From positions 1-43,292 of the forward strand of contig CAPI01000094.1 of NCBI GenBank assembly GCA_000333815.1: DNA of 43,292 nt. Reading direction: 5' to 3'. Positions within the stretch are counted from its first letter, which is position 1. Every line of letters starts with the position of its first letter. Under the pieces are notes generated by a model that saw only the letters and a program-made list of their open reading frames with translations, was not told the origin of the DNA and made no database searches. The translations under genes were made by a program, and so were the position numbers. The DNA is from [Collinsella] massiliensis. GTDB lineage: Bacteria > Actinomycetota > Coriobacteriia > Coriobacteriales > Coriobacteriaceae. This document shows positions 5,438 through 37,835 of this stretch, piece after piece.

Positions 5438-6520
5438 ATGGCAATGACCTTCTGTCCGGAGTGCCACGCTAAAATCTCTGACAAGGCGATGACCTGTCCA
5501 TACTGCGGTTTCTCGTCGGACAAGGACGGGAATCTCATCCCAATCAGCTCGCTTCCACCTGTTAGCAAGGCAATCGAGGTGCTAGCTCCGGGTTCGGAAG
5601 TCTTTGATGACGGCACAAGCCTCATACCATATGGAACACGGGAGAAGCTGAGCGCCCTCTTCAAGAGCGCAGAGGAAGTTGCCAGACTTGCACCATCCGT
5701 CTATGACGCCATCCAACAGGCTCTGGCAAAGAGAGGCACCATTTGGGCCGCAGATTTCACTGCCGCAGCCGAGAAGATGATGGACAGTGGCGAACTCGTC
5801 CTTGGTGTTGAGAAAAAGACCGGTGCGCTTCTTCCCCAACTGCGCAGCGTTGAAACAGGGCAAACCTACGAACAGGCCCGCCTTCATGTCGAACAGCTGC
5901 CAGATAATCTCGCCTCATCAATCGCTACCGTCCAGCTTCAGCTCTCTATGGCACAGCTGCTATCCGAAATCAAGGACGTCGCATACGGAGTGGAAAGGCT
6001 CCACCTCGAAGAGAGGGCCGACAGAATCGGGAGAGCGAAGGCGGTGTGGTATCAGCTCCAGCAGGCTGCACACATACGCGACGCACGACTCAGAGAGCAG
6101 CGCATCTTGAGTGTTGCCGGATCTGCAACGGAGCAGCGGAGTGCCTTGCAGGACAACTTCGAGACCGAACTATCGCTGGCAATCGGCAAGGGTAAGGCAA
6201 AGGCTTTGGGCAGTGCGGCGAGAGAGGCAATCATCGATTTGTCGATAATCTCCCTGATGGCGAGAACAGAATATGCGGCGTACTCCCTCGTCGACGAACC
6301 GGATGCCGCGATGACGGCATTGAGTCAGTTCGGCGAGTTCATGAGCTCGAACAGGCTCGATGAGAAGGAAACCCTGATAAAGCTAAACAGCATCTCAGAC
6401 AATAATCTGGATAATGCGACCACAGGCTTCTATCAGATTGCAAAGAACGTCAACCGTGCGCTGAATCAGAGCGCACAGGATGAGACAAAACGGCTTTCCC
6501 AAACAGAGGAGGAAGGATGA
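5438..6520 (+). CDS. Zinc-ribbon helical protein, unknown function
   Basis: 360 residues. The N-terminus has a classic zinc ribbon, CPECHAKISDKAMTCPYCGF, with two CxxC knuckles about 13 residues apart. The rest is long, mostly amphipathic helix with no membrane segments or nuclease motif I can name. The ATG at 5438 is preceded by AAGGAG (5426-5431). The stop overlaps the next ATG (ATGA, 6517-6520), so the two genes are coupled. Codon use is less GC-extreme than in the phage structural genes, suggesting a separately acquired moron. A conflict-system role is inference from its location among toxin genes. Confidence 0.75.
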   Translation: MAMTFCPECHAKISDKAMTCPYCGFSSDKDGNLIPISSLPPVSKAIEVLAPGSEVFDDGTSLIPYGTREKLSALFKSAEEVARLAPSVYDAIQQALAKRGTIWAADFTAAAEKMMDSGELVLGVEKKTGALLPQLRSVETGQTYEQARLHVEQLPDNLASSIATVQLQLSMAQLLSEIKDVAYGVERLHLEERADRIGRAKAVWYQLQQAAHIRDARLREQRILSVAGSATEQRSALQDNFETELSLAIGKGKAKALGSAAREAIIDLSIISLMARTEYAAYSLVDEPDAAMTALSQFGEFMSSNRLDEKETLIKLNSISDNNLDNATTGFYQIAKNVNRALNQSAQDETKRLSQTEEEG

Positions 6521-32497: not shown

Positions 32498-32558
32498 GGG
32501 CGTGATGGAATAGCAAAAGACCTGCTCACGACGCTCGCCAACCAAGGAGGTGAATGTA

Positions 32559-33869
32559 ATGGCAAAAGGAGACGGAAGCATTACGGAGGTAAAGAAGCCC
32601 GACGGAACCAGCTACGCCCCCAAGCACTGGAAGGTCCGCATCGACCTCGGTACGAACCCTATCACCGGCAAGCGCGACGTGGTCTCAAGAAACATCAAGG
32701 GAACCAAGTCCGACGCCTGCAAGCTGCGCGACCAACTCAAGGCAGACCTCGAGAACGGTCTCTCGGCCAACGCCGACAAGATGACCTTCGCCGAGTTCGC
32801 GGAGCAGTGGCAGCAAGCTCGCGAGACGGCGGCGGAGATCAGCAAGACGCGCTTGCGCCGGGAGCGCACCATCATCGAGGACATGTGCTCCTACATCGGA
32901 GCCATCAGGCTTCGCGACATCACTGCCCAGACCATCGAGGGGCTCTACATGAAGATGCGCTGGGACAAGACGGAGGAGAAGGGCAAGTGCAGCGGCACCA
33001 CCATGAACATGATCCACAAGCTGCTCAAGCAGATCCTCTCGCGTGCCGTGGACTACGACCTCATCCTGCGCAACCCCGCCGAGAAGGTCAAGGCGCCGCG
33101 ATGCGACACACCGGACCGCCGCTCCCTCACCACCGCTGAGGCACGTCAGCTGCTCGCGACCATCGACGAGGCAGAGTACGAGGCGTATGCGTCCCGCGAC
33201 GCCATCGAGGAACGGCAGGAGAAGCGCGGCGACACCTCGGAGCGGAGCTACCTGCGAGGCCTGTCCAGCATCGGCAACGTCATGGCGGCACGCATCGGCC
33301 TCGCAACCGGTATGCGACGCGGAGAGGTCCTGGGCCTCACGTGGGGCCATATCAGCTTCGCACGGGGAACCATCCGCGTCACCCAGTCGGTCACGACCTA
33401 CGGTGAGGTGAAGGAGCCCAAGACCGAGGCGGGGAAGCGCGTCATCGCCGTGGACGAGAAGACCATCGAGCACCTGAGGCGGTGGAAGCAGTTCCAGCGA
33501 GAAGAGCTCGCCATTCTGTCGCTCGAACAGACGAGGGACACACCCGTCTGCTGCAACGACAAAGGCGGCCTCATCGCCCCGACGAACTTCTCGCGCTGGT
33601 GGCGGTCCTTCACGAAGGCCCACGGTTTCGAGGGCCTGAAGTTCCATGAGCTCAGGCACACCCAGGCAACGCAGCTCGTCGCCGGCGGCATGGACATGAA
33701 GACCGTCCAGCACCGGCTCGGCCACGCCTCGGCAACCCTGACGATGAACCTCTACGCCCACGCGCTGCCCGAGAACGACGCCCAGGCGGCTCAGCTCATC
33801 GGCAGCCTGTTCTCCGAAACGCCGAACGAGCAGGCAAGGCAGGAAGGAGCTCTCAGGGTCGCGGTCTAA
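32559..33869 (+). CDS. int: Tyrosine integrase
   Basis: 436 residues from the ATG at 32559, with AAGGAGG 8 nt upstream; a GTG at 32550 is less likely because it overlaps that site. N-terminal arm-binding domain (VRIDLGTNPITGKRDVVSRNIKGTKSDA), core-binding domain (TFAEFAEQWQQ...), then the catalytic domain with Arg253 (TGMRRGE), His363 and Arg366 (HELRHTQAT), His389 (LGHAS) and Tyr399 (LYAHAL). All catalytic residues are present, so it should be active. Lies 124 bp from attR, and is transcribed towards the tRNA gene. Confidence 0.92.
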   Translation: MAKGDGSITEVKKPDGTSYAPKHWKVRIDLGTNPITGKRDVVSRNIKGTKSDACKLRDQLKADLENGLSANADKMTFAEFAEQWQQARETAAEISKTRLRRERTIIEDMCSYIGAIRLRDITAQTIEGLYMKMRWDKTEEKGKCSGTTMNMIHKLLKQILSRAVDYDLILRNPAEKVKAPRCDTPDRRSLTTAEARQLLATIDEAEYEAYASRDAIEERQEKRGDTSERSYLRGLSSIGNVMAARIGLATGMRRGEVLGLTWGHISFARGTIRVTQSVTTYGEVKEPKTEAGKRVIAVDEKTIEHLRRWKQFQREELAILSLEQTRDTPVCCNDKGGLIAPTNFSRWWRSFTKAHGFEGLKFHELRHTQATQLVAGGMDMKTVQHRLGHASATLTMNLYAHALPENDAQAAQLIGSLFSETPNEQARQEGALRVAV

Positions 33870-33993: not shown

Positions 33994-34040
33994 TGGTAGC
34001 CCGTACCAGATTCGAACTGGTGATCTCCGCCTTGAGAGGG
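33994..34040. repeat. Right attachment site (attR)
   Basis: 47 bp identical to 3031-3077. Forms the 3' part of the intact tRNA-Glu from the anticodon loop to CCA, so insertion restored the host gene. Confidence 0.9.
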
Positions 34041-34070
34041 CGGCGTCCTAAACCGCTAGACGAACGGGCC
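33994..34070 (-). tRNA. tRNA-Glu (anticodon CTC)
   Basis: 77 nt with encoded CCA. The acceptor stem pairs GGCCCGT with ACGGGCT (one G-T at the first pair). The anticodon arm CCGCC-CTCTCAA-GGCGG places CTC in the decoding position. The T arm is ACCAG-TTCGAAT-CTGGT. It is the target of the element; a hairpin with a T-run that would have ended its transcript is now 31 kb away at 2995-3022. Confidence 0.93.
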
Positions 34071-34192: not shown

Positions 34193-34223
34193 ATGTAAAA
34201 ATACCCCTGGGGTAATTTTACAT
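34193..34223. terminator. Bidirectional terminator after the DUF1846 gene
   Basis: Near-perfect 15-bp palindrome: ATGTAAAAATACCCC (34193-34207) against the facing arm to 34223, one mismatch. It begins at the DUF1846 stop codon. A/T ends on both sides would give U-tracts in either direction. Confidence 0.75.
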
Positions 34224-35704
34224 CAGCGGTGGTAGAAGGTGTGGCGCTCGAACTTGGGCTCGCAGCACACGTTGATGCCGAGCCGCTTGAGCAGCGCCTC
34301 GTCCGTGGCGGAGATGATCACCGAGAAGAACGCGTCGCAGCCCCGCAGAAGCGGCAGCCCCTCGAGCACGCGCGCGGCCACCTCGCTCGAGGCCGACGTG
34401 ATCGAGAGCGCGATGAGCGTCTCGTCCGGATGCAGGCGCGGGTTATGGCTCCCGAGCTGCGAGGTCTTGAGACGGCTAATGGGCTCGATGGCCTCGTTGC
34501 TGATGACCTCGAGCTCTATGTCCACGCCCGTCACGCACTTGAGCGCGTTCATGAGCAGCGAGCTCGCCGCGCCGAGGCGCTCGGAGGTCTTGCCCGTTAC
34601 CACGGAGCCGTCCGGCAGCACCATCGCGCCCACGGGCGCACCCGTCATCTCCTCCTTGAGGAGCGCCGCCGAGCGCGCCGGCGAGAAGTCCTTCGTCACG
34701 CCCGCGCGCTTCATGATGAGCTTGAGCTTGTCGACCTGCTCCTGCCCCATGCCGGTGCGCTTCACCTGCAGCGCGGCGGTGAAGTAGCGGCGCACGATCT
34801 CCATCTTCGCCGCGTCGCGGCACGCCTCATCGTCGGTGATGGCGAAGCCGACCATGTTGACGCCCATGTCCGTGGGGCTCTGGTAGGGGCTCTCACCCAG
34901 GATCTTCTCCATGAGCGCGCGCACCACGGGGAATGCCTCGACGTCGCGGTTGTAGTTCACCGTGGTCTCGCCATAGGCGTCAAGGTGGAACGAGTCGATG
35001 ATGTTCGAGTCGTCGAGGTCGACGGTAGCCGCCTCGTAGGCGATGTTCACGGGATGGTTGAGCGGCAGGTTCCACACGGGAAACGTCTCGAACTTGGCAT
35101 AGCCCGCGGCGACACCGCGCCGGTGCTCGTGGTAGACCTGCGAGAGGCAGGTGGCGAGCTTGCCCGAACCGGGGCCGGGCGCCGTCACGACCACGAGCGG
35201 GCGCTTGGTCTCGACGAACTCGTTGCGGCCATAGCCCTCCTCGGACACGATGAGGTCGATGTCGTGCGGATAGCCCTCGATGGGGTAATGCAGCTTGCAG
35301 GTGATGCCGAGCATGGAGAGGCGGCGACGGAAGACGTCGGCGGCGGGCTGGCCAGCGTACTGCGTGAGCACGACGGCGGCGACGGGCAGCCCGTTGCTGC
35401 TGAAGATGTCGGCCAGGCGCAGCACGTCCTCGTCATAGGTGATGCCGAGGTCGCCGCGCGCCTTGTTCTTCTCGATGTCGTTGGCGTTGATGGCGATGAT
35501 GACCTCGACGTCCTCCGACAGGCTCTTGAGCATGCGGAACTTCACCGAGGGCTCGAAGCCGGGGAGCACGCGGCTCGCGTGGTAGTCGTCGAAGAGCTTG
35601 CCGCCGAACTCCAGGTAGAGCTTTCCGCCGAACTGCTCGATGCGCTCCTTGATGCGCGCTGCCTGCAGCTCGATGTACGTCTCGTTGTCAAACCCCTGTC
35701 GCAT
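34223..35704 (-). CDS. DUF1846 domain protein
   Basis: 493 residues, full family length. MRQGFDNETYIELQAARIKERIEQFGGKLYLEFGGKLFDDYHASRVLPGF at the start is the hallmark of DUF1846. Later LVVVTAPGPGSGKLATCLSQVYHE looks like a P-loop, followed by NLPLNHPVNIAYEAATVDLDDSN. The role is not established; the family is common in anaerobic Firmicutes and Actinobacteria. GAGAGGAG precedes the ATG. Its leader could fold so that this site is covered (see 35714-35883). Confidence 0.85.
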   Translation of the reverse strand: MRQGFDNETYIELQAARIKERIEQFGGKLYLEFGGKLFDDYHASRVLPGFEPSVKFRMLKSLSEDVEVIIAINANDIEKNKARGDLGITYDEDVLRLADIFSSNGLPVAAVVLTQYAGQPAADVFRRRLSMLGITCKLHYPIEGYPHDIDLIVSEEGYGRNEFVETKRPLVVVTAPGPGSGKLATCLSQVYHEHRRGVAAGYAKFETFPVWNLPLNHPVNIAYEAATVDLDDSNIIDSFHLDAYGETTVNYNRDVEAFPVVRALMEKILGESPYQSPTDMGVNMVGFAITDDEACRDAAKMEIVRRYFTAALQVKRTGMGQEQVDKLKLIMKRAGVTKDFSPARSAALLKEEMTGAPVGAMVLPDGSVVTGKTSERLGAASSLLMNALKCVTGVDIELEVISNEAIEPISRLKTSQLGSHNPRLHPDETLIALSITSASSEVAARVLEGLPLLRGCDAFFSVIISATDEALLKRLGINVCCEPKFERHTFYHR

Positions 35705-35713
35705 GGGACGGCT

Positions 35714-35883
35714 CCTCTCTGATGTCCGAACCCGTTAAGTATACAGGAGCCCCGAGGATGAGGGGGCGGGCTCCACACTTCTCGCTTGTCCTCGGCGCGG
35801 GCGCCTGCGGAATCGCTCGAAGTATGGAGCCCGCCCCCTCATCCTCGGGCGACCGTTACCCTATCGGTCGGACATCAGAGAGG
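35714..35883 (-). promoter_or_regulatory. DUF1846 leader with 15-bp helix covering the ribosome-binding site
   Basis: CCTCTCTGATGTCCG (35714-35728) is the exact reverse complement of 35869-35883. On the minus transcript the arm next to the gene contains most of AGAGAGGAG, the ribosome-binding site of the DUF1846 gene. Between the arms lie a 6-bp hairpin (35850-35870) and foldback 1. A TATACT box at 35742-35737 could instead start transcription after the outer arm, which would leave the site free. Confidence 0.5.
35751..35849. repeat. Foldback repeat 1, variable arms around a conserved core
   Basis: 31-bp inverted arms 35751-35781 and 35819-35849 with one mismatch. The 37-nt loop, read on the minus strand, runs GAGCGATTCCGCAGGCGC ... 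CGCCGAGGACAAGCGA. The same loop occurs in foldback 2 on the plus strand. Confidence 0.85.
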
Positions 35884-35963
35884 GAGACCGGAAACTAATA
35901 GTTGAAGTGCACGGGTGACCGGGTTTCAAGCCCGACTCTTCCTGCGCTGCGTGTTTGTAGCGC

Positions 35964-36075
35964 CGGCCCCGCCCCGATCCCCGGCGCCGCCCTTGCTTTC
36001 GAGCGATTCCGCAGGCGCTATGCGCCGAGGACAAGCGAGAAAGCAAGGGCGGGGCCGGGGCTCGGGGCGGGGCCG
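35964..36075. repeat. Foldback repeat 2, same core with unrelated arms
   Basis: 37-bp inverted arms 35964-36000 and 36039-36075, two mismatches. The 38-nt loop (36001-36038) is the reverse complement of the loop of foldback 1 except for 3-4 central bases; it contains its own GGCGC/GCGCC stem. The arms share no homology with those of foldback 1. The 553-bp stretch 35705-36257 has no gene; it holds these two foldbacks, the leader helix and the hairpins at 36094 and 36191. Confidence 0.85.
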
Positions 36076-36093
36076 ACAGGAGCATAAAACTTC

Positions 36094-36124
36094 GCCCCCT
36101 CCCGTGCACGGTGCGGGAGGGGGC
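36094..36124 (-). terminator. Terminator of the arc operon
   Basis: GCCCCCTCCCG (36094-36104) pairs perfectly with CGGGAGGGGGC (36114-36124), 9-nt loop. On the minus strand it is followed by GAAGTTTTATG. Lies 134 bp past the carrier gene. Confidence 0.65.
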
Positions 36125-36190
36125 AGAAAGGTAGGGTCTCACCGGTCGCTCGCGCAGGGCGCGCACCGGCTCGACGTCAATTGGATCCAA

Positions 36191-36219
36191 CGCGGGCGGC
36201 GGAGACAATACCGCCCGCG
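36191..36219. repeat. 9-bp GC hairpin after the carrier gene
   Basis: CGCGGGCGG (36191-36199) and CCGCCCGCG (36211-36219), perfect, 11-nt loop, no T-run. It may protect the 3' end of the arc mRNA or assist the stronger terminator 70 bp further on. Confidence 0.5.
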
Positions 36220-36257
36220 GGATCGGCGGCTAGCGGGAAGAGGAGAGAACAGACCCG

Positions 36258-37835
36258 CTAGAACATCATGAGCGCAGCGGTCACGATGACGATCGAGACG
36301 ATGGAGAGCACCACCACGATCTTGACCGCGAACTTGAGCCACGTCGTCCACTCGATGCGAGCGAGGGCGAGGCCGCCCATGATGGCGCCGGACGTCGGGG
36401 TGAAGAGGTTCACCACGCCGATGGCGCTCGAGAAGATCATGACCATGACCTCAGGCGAGAAGCCGAGCTGGGCGGCAAGCGGTCCCATGATGGGCATGGA
36501 GACGGTCGCCATACCGGAGGTCGAGGGGATGAGGAACGAGAGGCCGAAGTAGATGATCCACGCAAACGGCGCGAAGAGCAGGCCGGACACACCGGACAGC
36601 GCGGAGGCCGCAGCGTTGAGCACGTACTGATCGAGGCCCGTGGAAGCCATGAGCACCGAGATGGCGCGCGAGAGCGCGATGACGAGCACGACGCTCATCA
36701 TGTCCGCGGCGCCGGAGATGAAGGTGTTCACGATGTCCTTCTCGGACAGGCCGCCCACGATGCCGATGACGATGGCCATGACGAGGAACCAGGTGGAAGC
36801 CTCATCGAAGTACCACTGGCCGATGGGCAGGCCCGTGATGACGGCGGACCAAGCCTGCGAGGTCTCGACCTCGGTCTCGGCGATGCCCTCGACGGAGCCC
36901 TCGACCTCGGTCACGGCGCCGTTGAGCTCGTCGTAGGCACCGACGAGGTCATCGGTGGTGACAGGGGTCTCGACGATCTCGAAGGACTGGCCGGCGTCGA
37001 AGAAGTCCGCGACGCTCTGGCTCAGGTCGGCGATCGGGATGAAGCCGGCGATCATGACGACGAACGTGAAGGCGAAGATCACGAGCACGCCCTTCTGGCG
37101 GCCGGTGAGGGTGACCTTCTTGGAGGCCTCGGCGGCGGCGGCGCCGTGCGCCTCCTCGGCGTTCTTCTGCTCTTGGAGCGACATGAACGTGGAGCCCTTG
37201 TCGGCCTTGACCTTCTTGGCGTAGTTCATCACGAAGACGATGGCGACCGCGGTGGTCGCGATCCACAGCACCGCGCCGAGACCGATGATGATGGTCTGGT
37301 TGGCCTCGATGCCCACGCCGCGGAGCGCGTCGACGGCGGCGCCGACGGCGAACGGGTTCACCGTGGAGCCCAGGCAGCCGCAGCCAGCGCCCAGAAGGAC
37401 GACGGCGGCGCCGGTGAGCGCGTCGAAGCCGGCGGCCATCATCGTGGCGGCGAGCAGCGCGTAGAACGGGACCGTCTCCTCGCACATGCCGTAGGTGGTG
37501 CCACCGAGCGAGAAGATGAACATGAGCACGGGGATGATCCACAGCTCACGGCCCTTGAGCTTCTGCACGAGGACGGCGATGCCGTTATCGAGGGCGCCGG
37601 TCTTGGTCATCATGCCCAAGAAGCCGCCCAGGATCATCACGAACAGGCAGACCGGCAGCGCGTCCGCGAAGCCCTTGACGGGGGCGGTGAAGAAGTCGCT
37701 GAACCGGGCAGGGGTCACCTCGCCGGGCGCGAAGCCGGCGACGATGACGGTGATGATCGCAACGAGAGCAAGCAGGATAAGAAGAATGGTGAAGGAAGAT
37801 AGCATGCCGCGCTTCTTCTTGGCAGCTTCAGCCAT
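36258..37835 (-). CDS. YfcC/DcuC-type carrier, probable arginine/ornithine antiporter
   Basis: 525 residues with about 12 hydrophobic segments, beginning FTILLILLALVAIITVIVAGF. Family marks: VCLFVMILGGFLGMMTKTGALDNGI, FSLGGTTYGMCEETVPFY, LGAGCGCLGSTVNPF and LSFLIPSTSGMATVSMPIMGP, near-repeated halves typical of the YfcC branch of C4-dicarboxylate anaerobic carriers. In Gram-positive arc operons this family takes the role of ArcD, exchanging arginine for ornithine. The position behind arcA and arcB supports that; substrate specificity is inference. An acidic stretch at about 300-340 lies in a loop. Confidence 0.8.
   Translation of the reverse strand: MAEAAKKKRGMLSSFTILLILLALVAIITVIVAGFAPGEVTPARFSDFFTAPVKGFADALPVCLFVMILGGFLGMMTKTGALDNGIAVLVQKLKGRELWIIPVLMFIFSLGGTTYGMCEETVPFYALLAATMMAAGFDALTGAAVVLLGAGCGCLGSTVNPFAVGAAVDALRGVGIEANQTIIIGLGAVLWIATTAVAIVFVMNYAKKVKADKGSTFMSLQEQKNAEEAHGAAAAEASKKVTLTGRQKGVLVIFAFTFVVMIAGFIPIADLSQSVADFFDAGQSFEIVETPVTTDDLVGAYDELNGAVTEVEGSVEGIAETEVETSQAWSAVITGLPIGQWYFDEASTWFLVMAIVIGIVGGLSEKDIVNTFISGAADMMSVVLVIALSRAISVLMASTGLDQYVLNAAASALSGVSGLLFAPFAWIIYFGLSFLIPSTSGMATVSMPIMGPLAAQLGFSPEVMVMIFSSAIGVVNLFTPTSGAIMGGLALARIEWTTWLKFAVKIVVVLSIVSIVIVTAALMMF

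Follow-up and report, generated by a model that had tools for sequence, protein, structure and literature searches.

We consider it rather likely that the two foldbacks F1 and F2, found in a 43,292-nt window of [Collinsella] massiliensis DNA, are members of a hairpin family of the Coriobacteriales, most copies of which resemble transcription terminators and carry a conserved module at the apex. In favour of this reading we count the covariation of the stems, the agreement in orientation of 63 out of 68 informative copies, the bias of T-rich tails to one side, the unrelated genes upstream, the presence of copies at orthologous sites, and the clade-specific core variants on top of inherited outer arms.

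Results

Two foldbacks with near-identical loops

The initial annotation had described two foldbacks with nearly identical loops in opposite orientation and with arms of 31 and 37 nt, and this was confirmed by coordinates, complementarity and folding against shuffled sequences (Table 1). The arms of F1 (35751-35781 and 35819-35849; 31 nt) are 97% complementary around a loop of 37 nt, and those of F2 (35964-36000 and 36039-36075; 37 nt) are 95% complementary around a loop of 38 nt. Inverted exact blocks of 21 nt (35801-35821 and 35998-36018) and 20 nt (35779-35798 and 36022-36041) are common to both loops, and the 2-3 nt between these blocks are the sole difference. The core halves GAGCGATTCCGCAGGCGC and GCCGAGGACAAGCGAG each have two mismatch-free occurrences within the window. 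On both strands F1 and F2 folded far beyond their shuffled counterparts (DNA z -7.7 to -9.9, with 0 of 200 shuffles as good).

Table 1. Hairpins, core halves and neighbouring genes in the analysed window.
Feature	Position	Strand	Description
Foldback F1	35751..35849	-	31-bp arms around core, core on - strand; fold/repeat analysis, model matches at 35771-35829
F1 core 5' half GAGCGATTCCGCAGGCGC	35801..35818	-	exact match
F1 core 3' half GCCGAGGACAAGCGAG	35781..35796	-	exact match
Foldback F2	35964..36075	+	37-bp arms around core, core on + strand; model matches at 35990-36049
F2 core 5' half GAGCGATTCCGCAGGCGC	36001..36018	+	exact match
F2 core 3' half GCCGAGGACAAGCGAG	36024..36039	+	exact match
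Left arm of 16-bp inverted repeat bracketing F1	35714..35729	.	partner 35868-35883; inverted-repeat search
Right arm of 16-bp inverted repeat bracketing F1	35868..35883	.	partner 35714-35729
Plain hairpin GCCCCCTCCCG..CGGGAGGGGGC	36094..36124	-	TTTT a few bases on; read from sequence
DcuC-family carrier gene	36258..37835	-	PF03606; upstream of F2 in RNA sense
DUF1846 gene	34223..35704	-	PF08903 + PF20921; start codon 46 bp from F1

The inverted repeat that brackets F1, CCTCTCTGATGTCCGA, is perfect and its arms are 138 nt apart. In five genomes of the genus it was found without mismatch only at its two F1-flanking sites; elsewhere in the genus genomes there were only places with two mismatches, and a larger MITE around F1 built from this bracket was rejected.

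F1 and F2 are exceptions in the family in that neither directly follows a stop codon. F2 is located ~180 nt past the stop of the DcuC-family gene, beyond the plain hairpin that stands between the two and that we read, from its sequence, as the gene's own terminator. F1 precedes the start codon of a gene and has no gene to terminate. A consensus terminator scan of 35600-36300 gave 0 terminators, the plain hairpin also being unflagged. In the same window a phage-type integrase gene (32550-33869) adjoins a tRNA gene (33997-34070), which together are probably the end of an integrated element at ~2 kb from F1 and F2.

A conserved internal-loop module near the stem apex

Two strands, GCGATTCCGCA and GAGGACAAGC, make up the core, an internal-loop motif that encloses a variable inner stem-loop and is itself enclosed by variable outer arms. 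With RNA parameters the loop was predicted to consist of GC, a 3x3 internal loop (GAT opposite CAA), TCC-GGA, an internal loop (GCA opposite GA) and the inner stem-loop. In transcript sense, which in most copies is the reverse complement of the orientation used in the initial annotation, the module reads GC[UUG]UCC[UC]G..inner stem-loop..C[UGC]GGA[AUC]GC and is located near the apex of the stem. The module fold was not preferred by the bare core with DNA parameters, and DNA versus RNA folding of the bare core was dropped as a strand test as it gave no clear strand preference.

Covariation was strong in both the inner and the outer stems. An alignment of 20 sequences scored 0.504 as compared to 0.139 after shuffling (0/500 shuffles), with slid controls at 0.10-0.18. 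For 62 distinct sequences among the 63 genus copies, in an alignment fitted to the covariance model, the score was 0.528 versus 0.166 for shuffled alignments; 290 cells had changed on both sides, and the inner helices were 99-100% paired. In 11 copies from two genomes GCGATTCCGCA and GAGGACAAGC were common to all and the inner parts ranged from 7 to 37 nt, the invariance of the core in this set being partly the result of selection by pattern; the model-based sets contain core variants. Additionally, a second core subtype, GCGAGTTCCGCA..GAGGACTG.., was observed beside type I in the same genomes (L282, L283, L285, L289, L293, L297, L298, L301).

Extent of the family

Further copies of the core, each with its own palindrome, were found in the genome from which the window comes (2.33 Mb, 135 contigs). 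Both there and elsewhere in the genus each copy forms the apex of a separate palindrome, and the arms differ from copy to copy; copies of the core without flanking palindromes, or copies that all share one arm, which were the observations that would speak against the initial annotation, were absent there. In the MAG RUG14206 the copies have their arms in common.

A covariance model built from 20 sequences (E<=1e-3) had matches in at least 51 of 297 Coriobacteriales genomes, with 13-150 candidates scored per genome in scans of this kind. With a second model (E<=0.01) the genus genomes G000 to G004 had at least 12, 14, 19, 2 and 25 matches, respectively; these counts are floors from 150 scored candidates per genome, and the weakest matches may be due to chance. 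In a phylum-wide sample of 396 genomes (second model, E<=1e-4) at least 13 matched, every one of them inside the Coriobacteriales. Named contigs with the exact core were mostly from MAGs of Coriobacteriaceae, Collinsella and Eggerthellaceae, with one MAG labelled Bacillota. Several other occurrences of the exact core, including those in Microbulbifer, Pseudoxanthomonas, Catenuloplanes, Planctomycetales, Poribacteria and Terrimicrobiaceae, had no palindrome by eye and are probably due to chance. The exact core was found in none of the viral contigs, and blastn of positions 35700-36140 gave no match in plasmid and phage collections.

Apart from tRNAs, no Rfam family matched at its gathering score, by which a known Rfam family was excluded; miRNA models matched F2 below gathering. 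Among the titles and the opening parts of abstracts returned by a literature search we recognised no description of such a hairpin element. The structured family, present at many gene ends in the gut Coriobacteriales, is real and apparently undescribed. In G002 the hairpins L286, L287, L290 and L291 are at or near contig ends; hairpins of this kind probably break assemblies, leading to underestimated copy numbers.

Place and orientation relative to genes

The position of the hairpins was determined for 96 distinct copies with TCCTC..TGCGGA, model matches without that pattern being dropped. A stop codon was present within ~90 nt on the transcript-sense side of 70 of them and on the opposite side of 12, with 7 having one on both sides; the orientation agreed in 63 of the 68 one-sided cases (p 8e-14), and the median distance from stop codon to stem was 22 nt in transcript sense. 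Similarly, an ORF heuristic placed a same-strand gene upstream, in transcript sense, for 67 of 84 matches. At least five T in the 12 nt past the stem, with stem ends taken from a crude walk, were seen in 12/96 copies in transcript sense and in 1/96 on the other side, and L138 has a TTTTTTT tail. The genes upstream are mutually unrelated (GroEL, FtsX, Ca-ATPase, aldolase, PNPase and others, named from their sequences), and orthologous copies of the hairpin are present across species and genera. In RUG14206 and RGIG2436 copies occur in both orientations relative to genes.

The family shares with intrinsic (Rho-independent) terminators the GC-rich hairpin shortly after the stop, the fixed orientation and the plain terminators at orthologous sites; a T-rich tail is seen in some copies only. 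It differs in that its stems are long, with up to 39 bp counted, and end in a conserved internal-loop module topped by a second, variable stem. The post-stop hairpin in transcript sense is a property of the family that F1 lacks and from which F2 is ~180 nt off.

Inverted pairs of hairpins, 190-420 bp apart, recur in the window and in L137, L138, L139 and L194. A composite element of two inverted hairpins was rejected, since the two hairpins in L138 and L139 go with different genes that converge, so that the pairing follows gene order.

Orthologous gene ends and clade-specific change

Searches for groEL and ftsX matched 61 and 63 of 63 genomes, respectively, and 30 loci of each were fetched. 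With regular expressions the strict motif was found at 4 groEL ends, a loosely defined variant at 11 and neither at 15; for ftsX the numbers were 4, 2 and 24. Plain terminators complete with both arms stand at several of the ends that have no motif, for example at groEL in L201, L205, L214, L215 and L222, which argues against a core that copies one flank. The proposal in the initial annotation of a mobile core that duplicates its flank in inverted form when it inserts is not supported, in view of these core-less ends and of the fixed orientation to the gene.

By gene identity G000 groups with G002 (0.91-0.92) and G001 with G004 (0.87-0.90), which gives the two clades compared here; groEL of G003 was nearer still to G000 (0.93). 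In a census of 61 copies GAGGACAAGC was carried by 6/11 copies of G000 and 11/18 of G002 (17 in total) and by none in G001 and G004; GAGGACCAGC was carried by 9/12 copies of G001 and 13/20 of G004 (22 in total) and by none in G000 and G002, the remainder being other variants or subtypes. Orthologs were compared for 45 type-I copies, after removal of the 18 of 63 copies that the expression did not match. Between the clades, in a small sample of seven non-independent pairs from five loci, the outer arms of orthologs were 0.73 identical as compared to 0.57 for non-orthologs. For the same seven pairs the near arms gave 0.65 versus 0.64 and the inner stem 0.385 versus 0.43, with 0.575 for same-clade non-orthologs, and the core variant was shared in 0/7. 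As the outer arms are more alike in orthologs and the inner parts are not, the sequences indicate that between the two clades the outer arms at orthologous genes are inherited, and that the near arms, the inner stem and the variant of the core form a clade-specific apical cassette. Such a cassette could have arisen via re-insertion, via conversion, or via co-evolution with a reader.

Foldback elements and transposases

In RUG14206 (L069-L102) 17 aligned copies form a dispersed foldback of ~190 bp with a central core, constant arms and matching ends (GTTGC.GTTCAC), present in many copies. No ends or arms are common to the copies in the genus of the window. In an Eggerthellaceae MAG (L089) the linker of an ABC exporter gene contains, in frame, a model match at 5557-5636 (-) whose arms are ~43 bp long. 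Between the same bounding motifs this linker has 83 residues in L089, 45 in L303 and 41 in L304, the latter two having diverged to the extent that neither hairpin arm is recognisable and the ends of the insert are unresolved. The same linker in L302 (G253) has another palindromic repeat, GTCATTCCGAGCGAAGCGAGGAATC.., with the peptide HSERSEES..FDSAQDD and a core-like apex, ATTCCG-AGCGAAGCG-AGGA.

These copies bear on the first rival explanation, a small MITE-like or REP-like palindromic cassette that either inserts at the apices of existing terminator hairpins or moves from one to another by copying, with clade-specific amplification leading to a clade-specific core and inner stem. It would account for the fact that core, near arm and inner stem follow the clade although the outer arms below them are inherited (in the seven pairs from five loci), for presence, variants and absence at the groEL and ftsX ends, for the resemblance of copies to their same-clade paralogs, for the RUG14206 foldback, and for the L089 copy, which is absent from relatives. 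However, a fixed orientation to genes is unexpected for insertion into a palindrome, the L303 and L304 linkers do not define the ends of an insert, blastn gave no match in plasmids or phages, and the exact core was absent from the viral contigs.

Nor was a transposase partner apparent. Y1 transposases were present in 15 of 20 genomes tested, and among 32 Y1 loci (12 loci with a best score of 14.8 bits, and a further 20) no convincing hairpin was found beside the gene. Inside the genus Y1 counts track hairpin counts (G003 has 0 Y1 and 2 hairpins), whereas outside the genus they are decoupled: G125 and G253 have 0 Y1 with at least 14 and 15 hairpins, so that some hairpin-rich genomes are without Y1 transposase, and G015, G027 and G029 have 1-2 Y1 with no hairpin among the scored candidates. 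A RAYT partnership was rejected on these grounds, and we regard the mobile cassette as a whole as doubtful. In L337 (G004) a RAYT-like Y1 gene is flanked by palindromes TGAGACAGTTGTGCCGGGTTAAACTGTCTC at 1009-1092 and 1954-2032, a separate REP-like family.

In comparison with known systems, REP/BIME elements with RAYT (Y1) are likewise dispersed intergenic palindromes near gene ends, and of the present family four of the five genus genomes have at least 12-25 matches each; the family differs in that the core is constant and the arms differ between copies and covary, and in that no convincing copy stands beside Y1 genes, one such gene being flanked by another palindrome (TGAGACAGTTGTGCC..). The ~190-bp foldback with matching ends in RUG14206 resembles MITEs; in contrast, the copies of the window's genus have no constant ends or arms and are fixed in orientation to genes. 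Integron attC sites are hairpins recognised by their internal-loop structure, with a variable stem, and may be a parallel, although the expected box sequences were not noticed in the family.

Stem pairing and template switching

The outer stems had 1511 Watson-Crick, 24 G.T, 20 A.C and 30 other positions, the walk along the stem stopping at clustered mismatches and hairpins in which it failed adding little. G.T and A.C are equally rare, and there is thus no strand-specific wobble of the kind expected from RNA-folding selection alone; 33 ordinary terminators had 11 G.T and 6 A.C, numbers too small for a firm contrast with the family. Of the 320 columns compared in 16 ortholog pairs, 162 were unchanged, 100 had changed on both sides, 52 on one side (13 of them in a single pair with a probably shifted alignment) and 6 were unpaired in both. 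Template switching has been proposed for the creation and upkeep of RNA stems (PMC8794818). The stem position counts and the two-sided changes are compatible with template switching, which may keep the arms perfect; selection for exact pairing may account for them as well.

A purely mutational origin, in which the perfect hairpins come from template switching and the core would be a hot spot or a functionless leftover, agrees with the nearly Watson-Crick-only arms, the two-sided changes and that published model, but we consider it improbable, as the recurrence of the exact core in several families, the fixed orientation and the place after the stop are unexplained by it, and switching across the loop would invert the core, contrary to the fixed orientation.

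Discussion

According to the reading that we prefer, a terminator-like family with a conserved apical module, the hairpin at ~22 nt past the stop would in most copies act as an intrinsic terminator, or as part of one, where the mRNA has its 3' end. The outer arms and the inner stem could change freely provided that pairing is kept, with the internal-loop module remaining fixed. A putative trans-acting factor may recognise the module, either in RNA or in an extruded DNA strand; the module sequence and orientation would then be fixed, and the copies of a clade would change together, because this factor reads the module. Replication template switching may preserve the perfect pairing of the arms. 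In F2 the DcuC-family gene would be followed by a second terminator-like hairpin, whereas F1 would be an orphan copy.

Several observations count against this reading. F1 and F2 do not directly follow a stop codon, F1 lying before a gene start; most T tails are weak, and the scan around F1 and F2 gave no terminators; the equal rarity of G.T and A.C in the stems is not in its favour either. The same is true for the copies in both orientations in RUG14206 and RGIG2436 and for the in-frame copy inside a gene in L089, and the trans-acting factor is a putative one.

The module stays constant although the stem varies on either side of it, which suggests a cell factor that recognises the cap. More tentatively, and with less confidence than for family membership itself, we propose as a possibility a lineage-wide capping code, in which one trans-acting protein or RNA of the Coriobacteriales reads the module at many gene ends, within hairpins whose sequence is otherwise arbitrary, and the sites change in concert with it (the two clades having GAGGACAAGC and GAGGACCAGC, respectively), template switching perfects the stems, and foldback elements use the same cap.

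If such a code were true, a mobile hairpin and a class of terminators would have one common recognition unit. Sequence-constrained and pairing-constrained parts are separated within one hairpin at dozens of loci in several species, and it can now be tested whether selection or template switching maintains the perfect stems, and whether terminators carry a recognition module. At orthologous sites the core has changed throughout a clade, which points to a factor amenable to a search.
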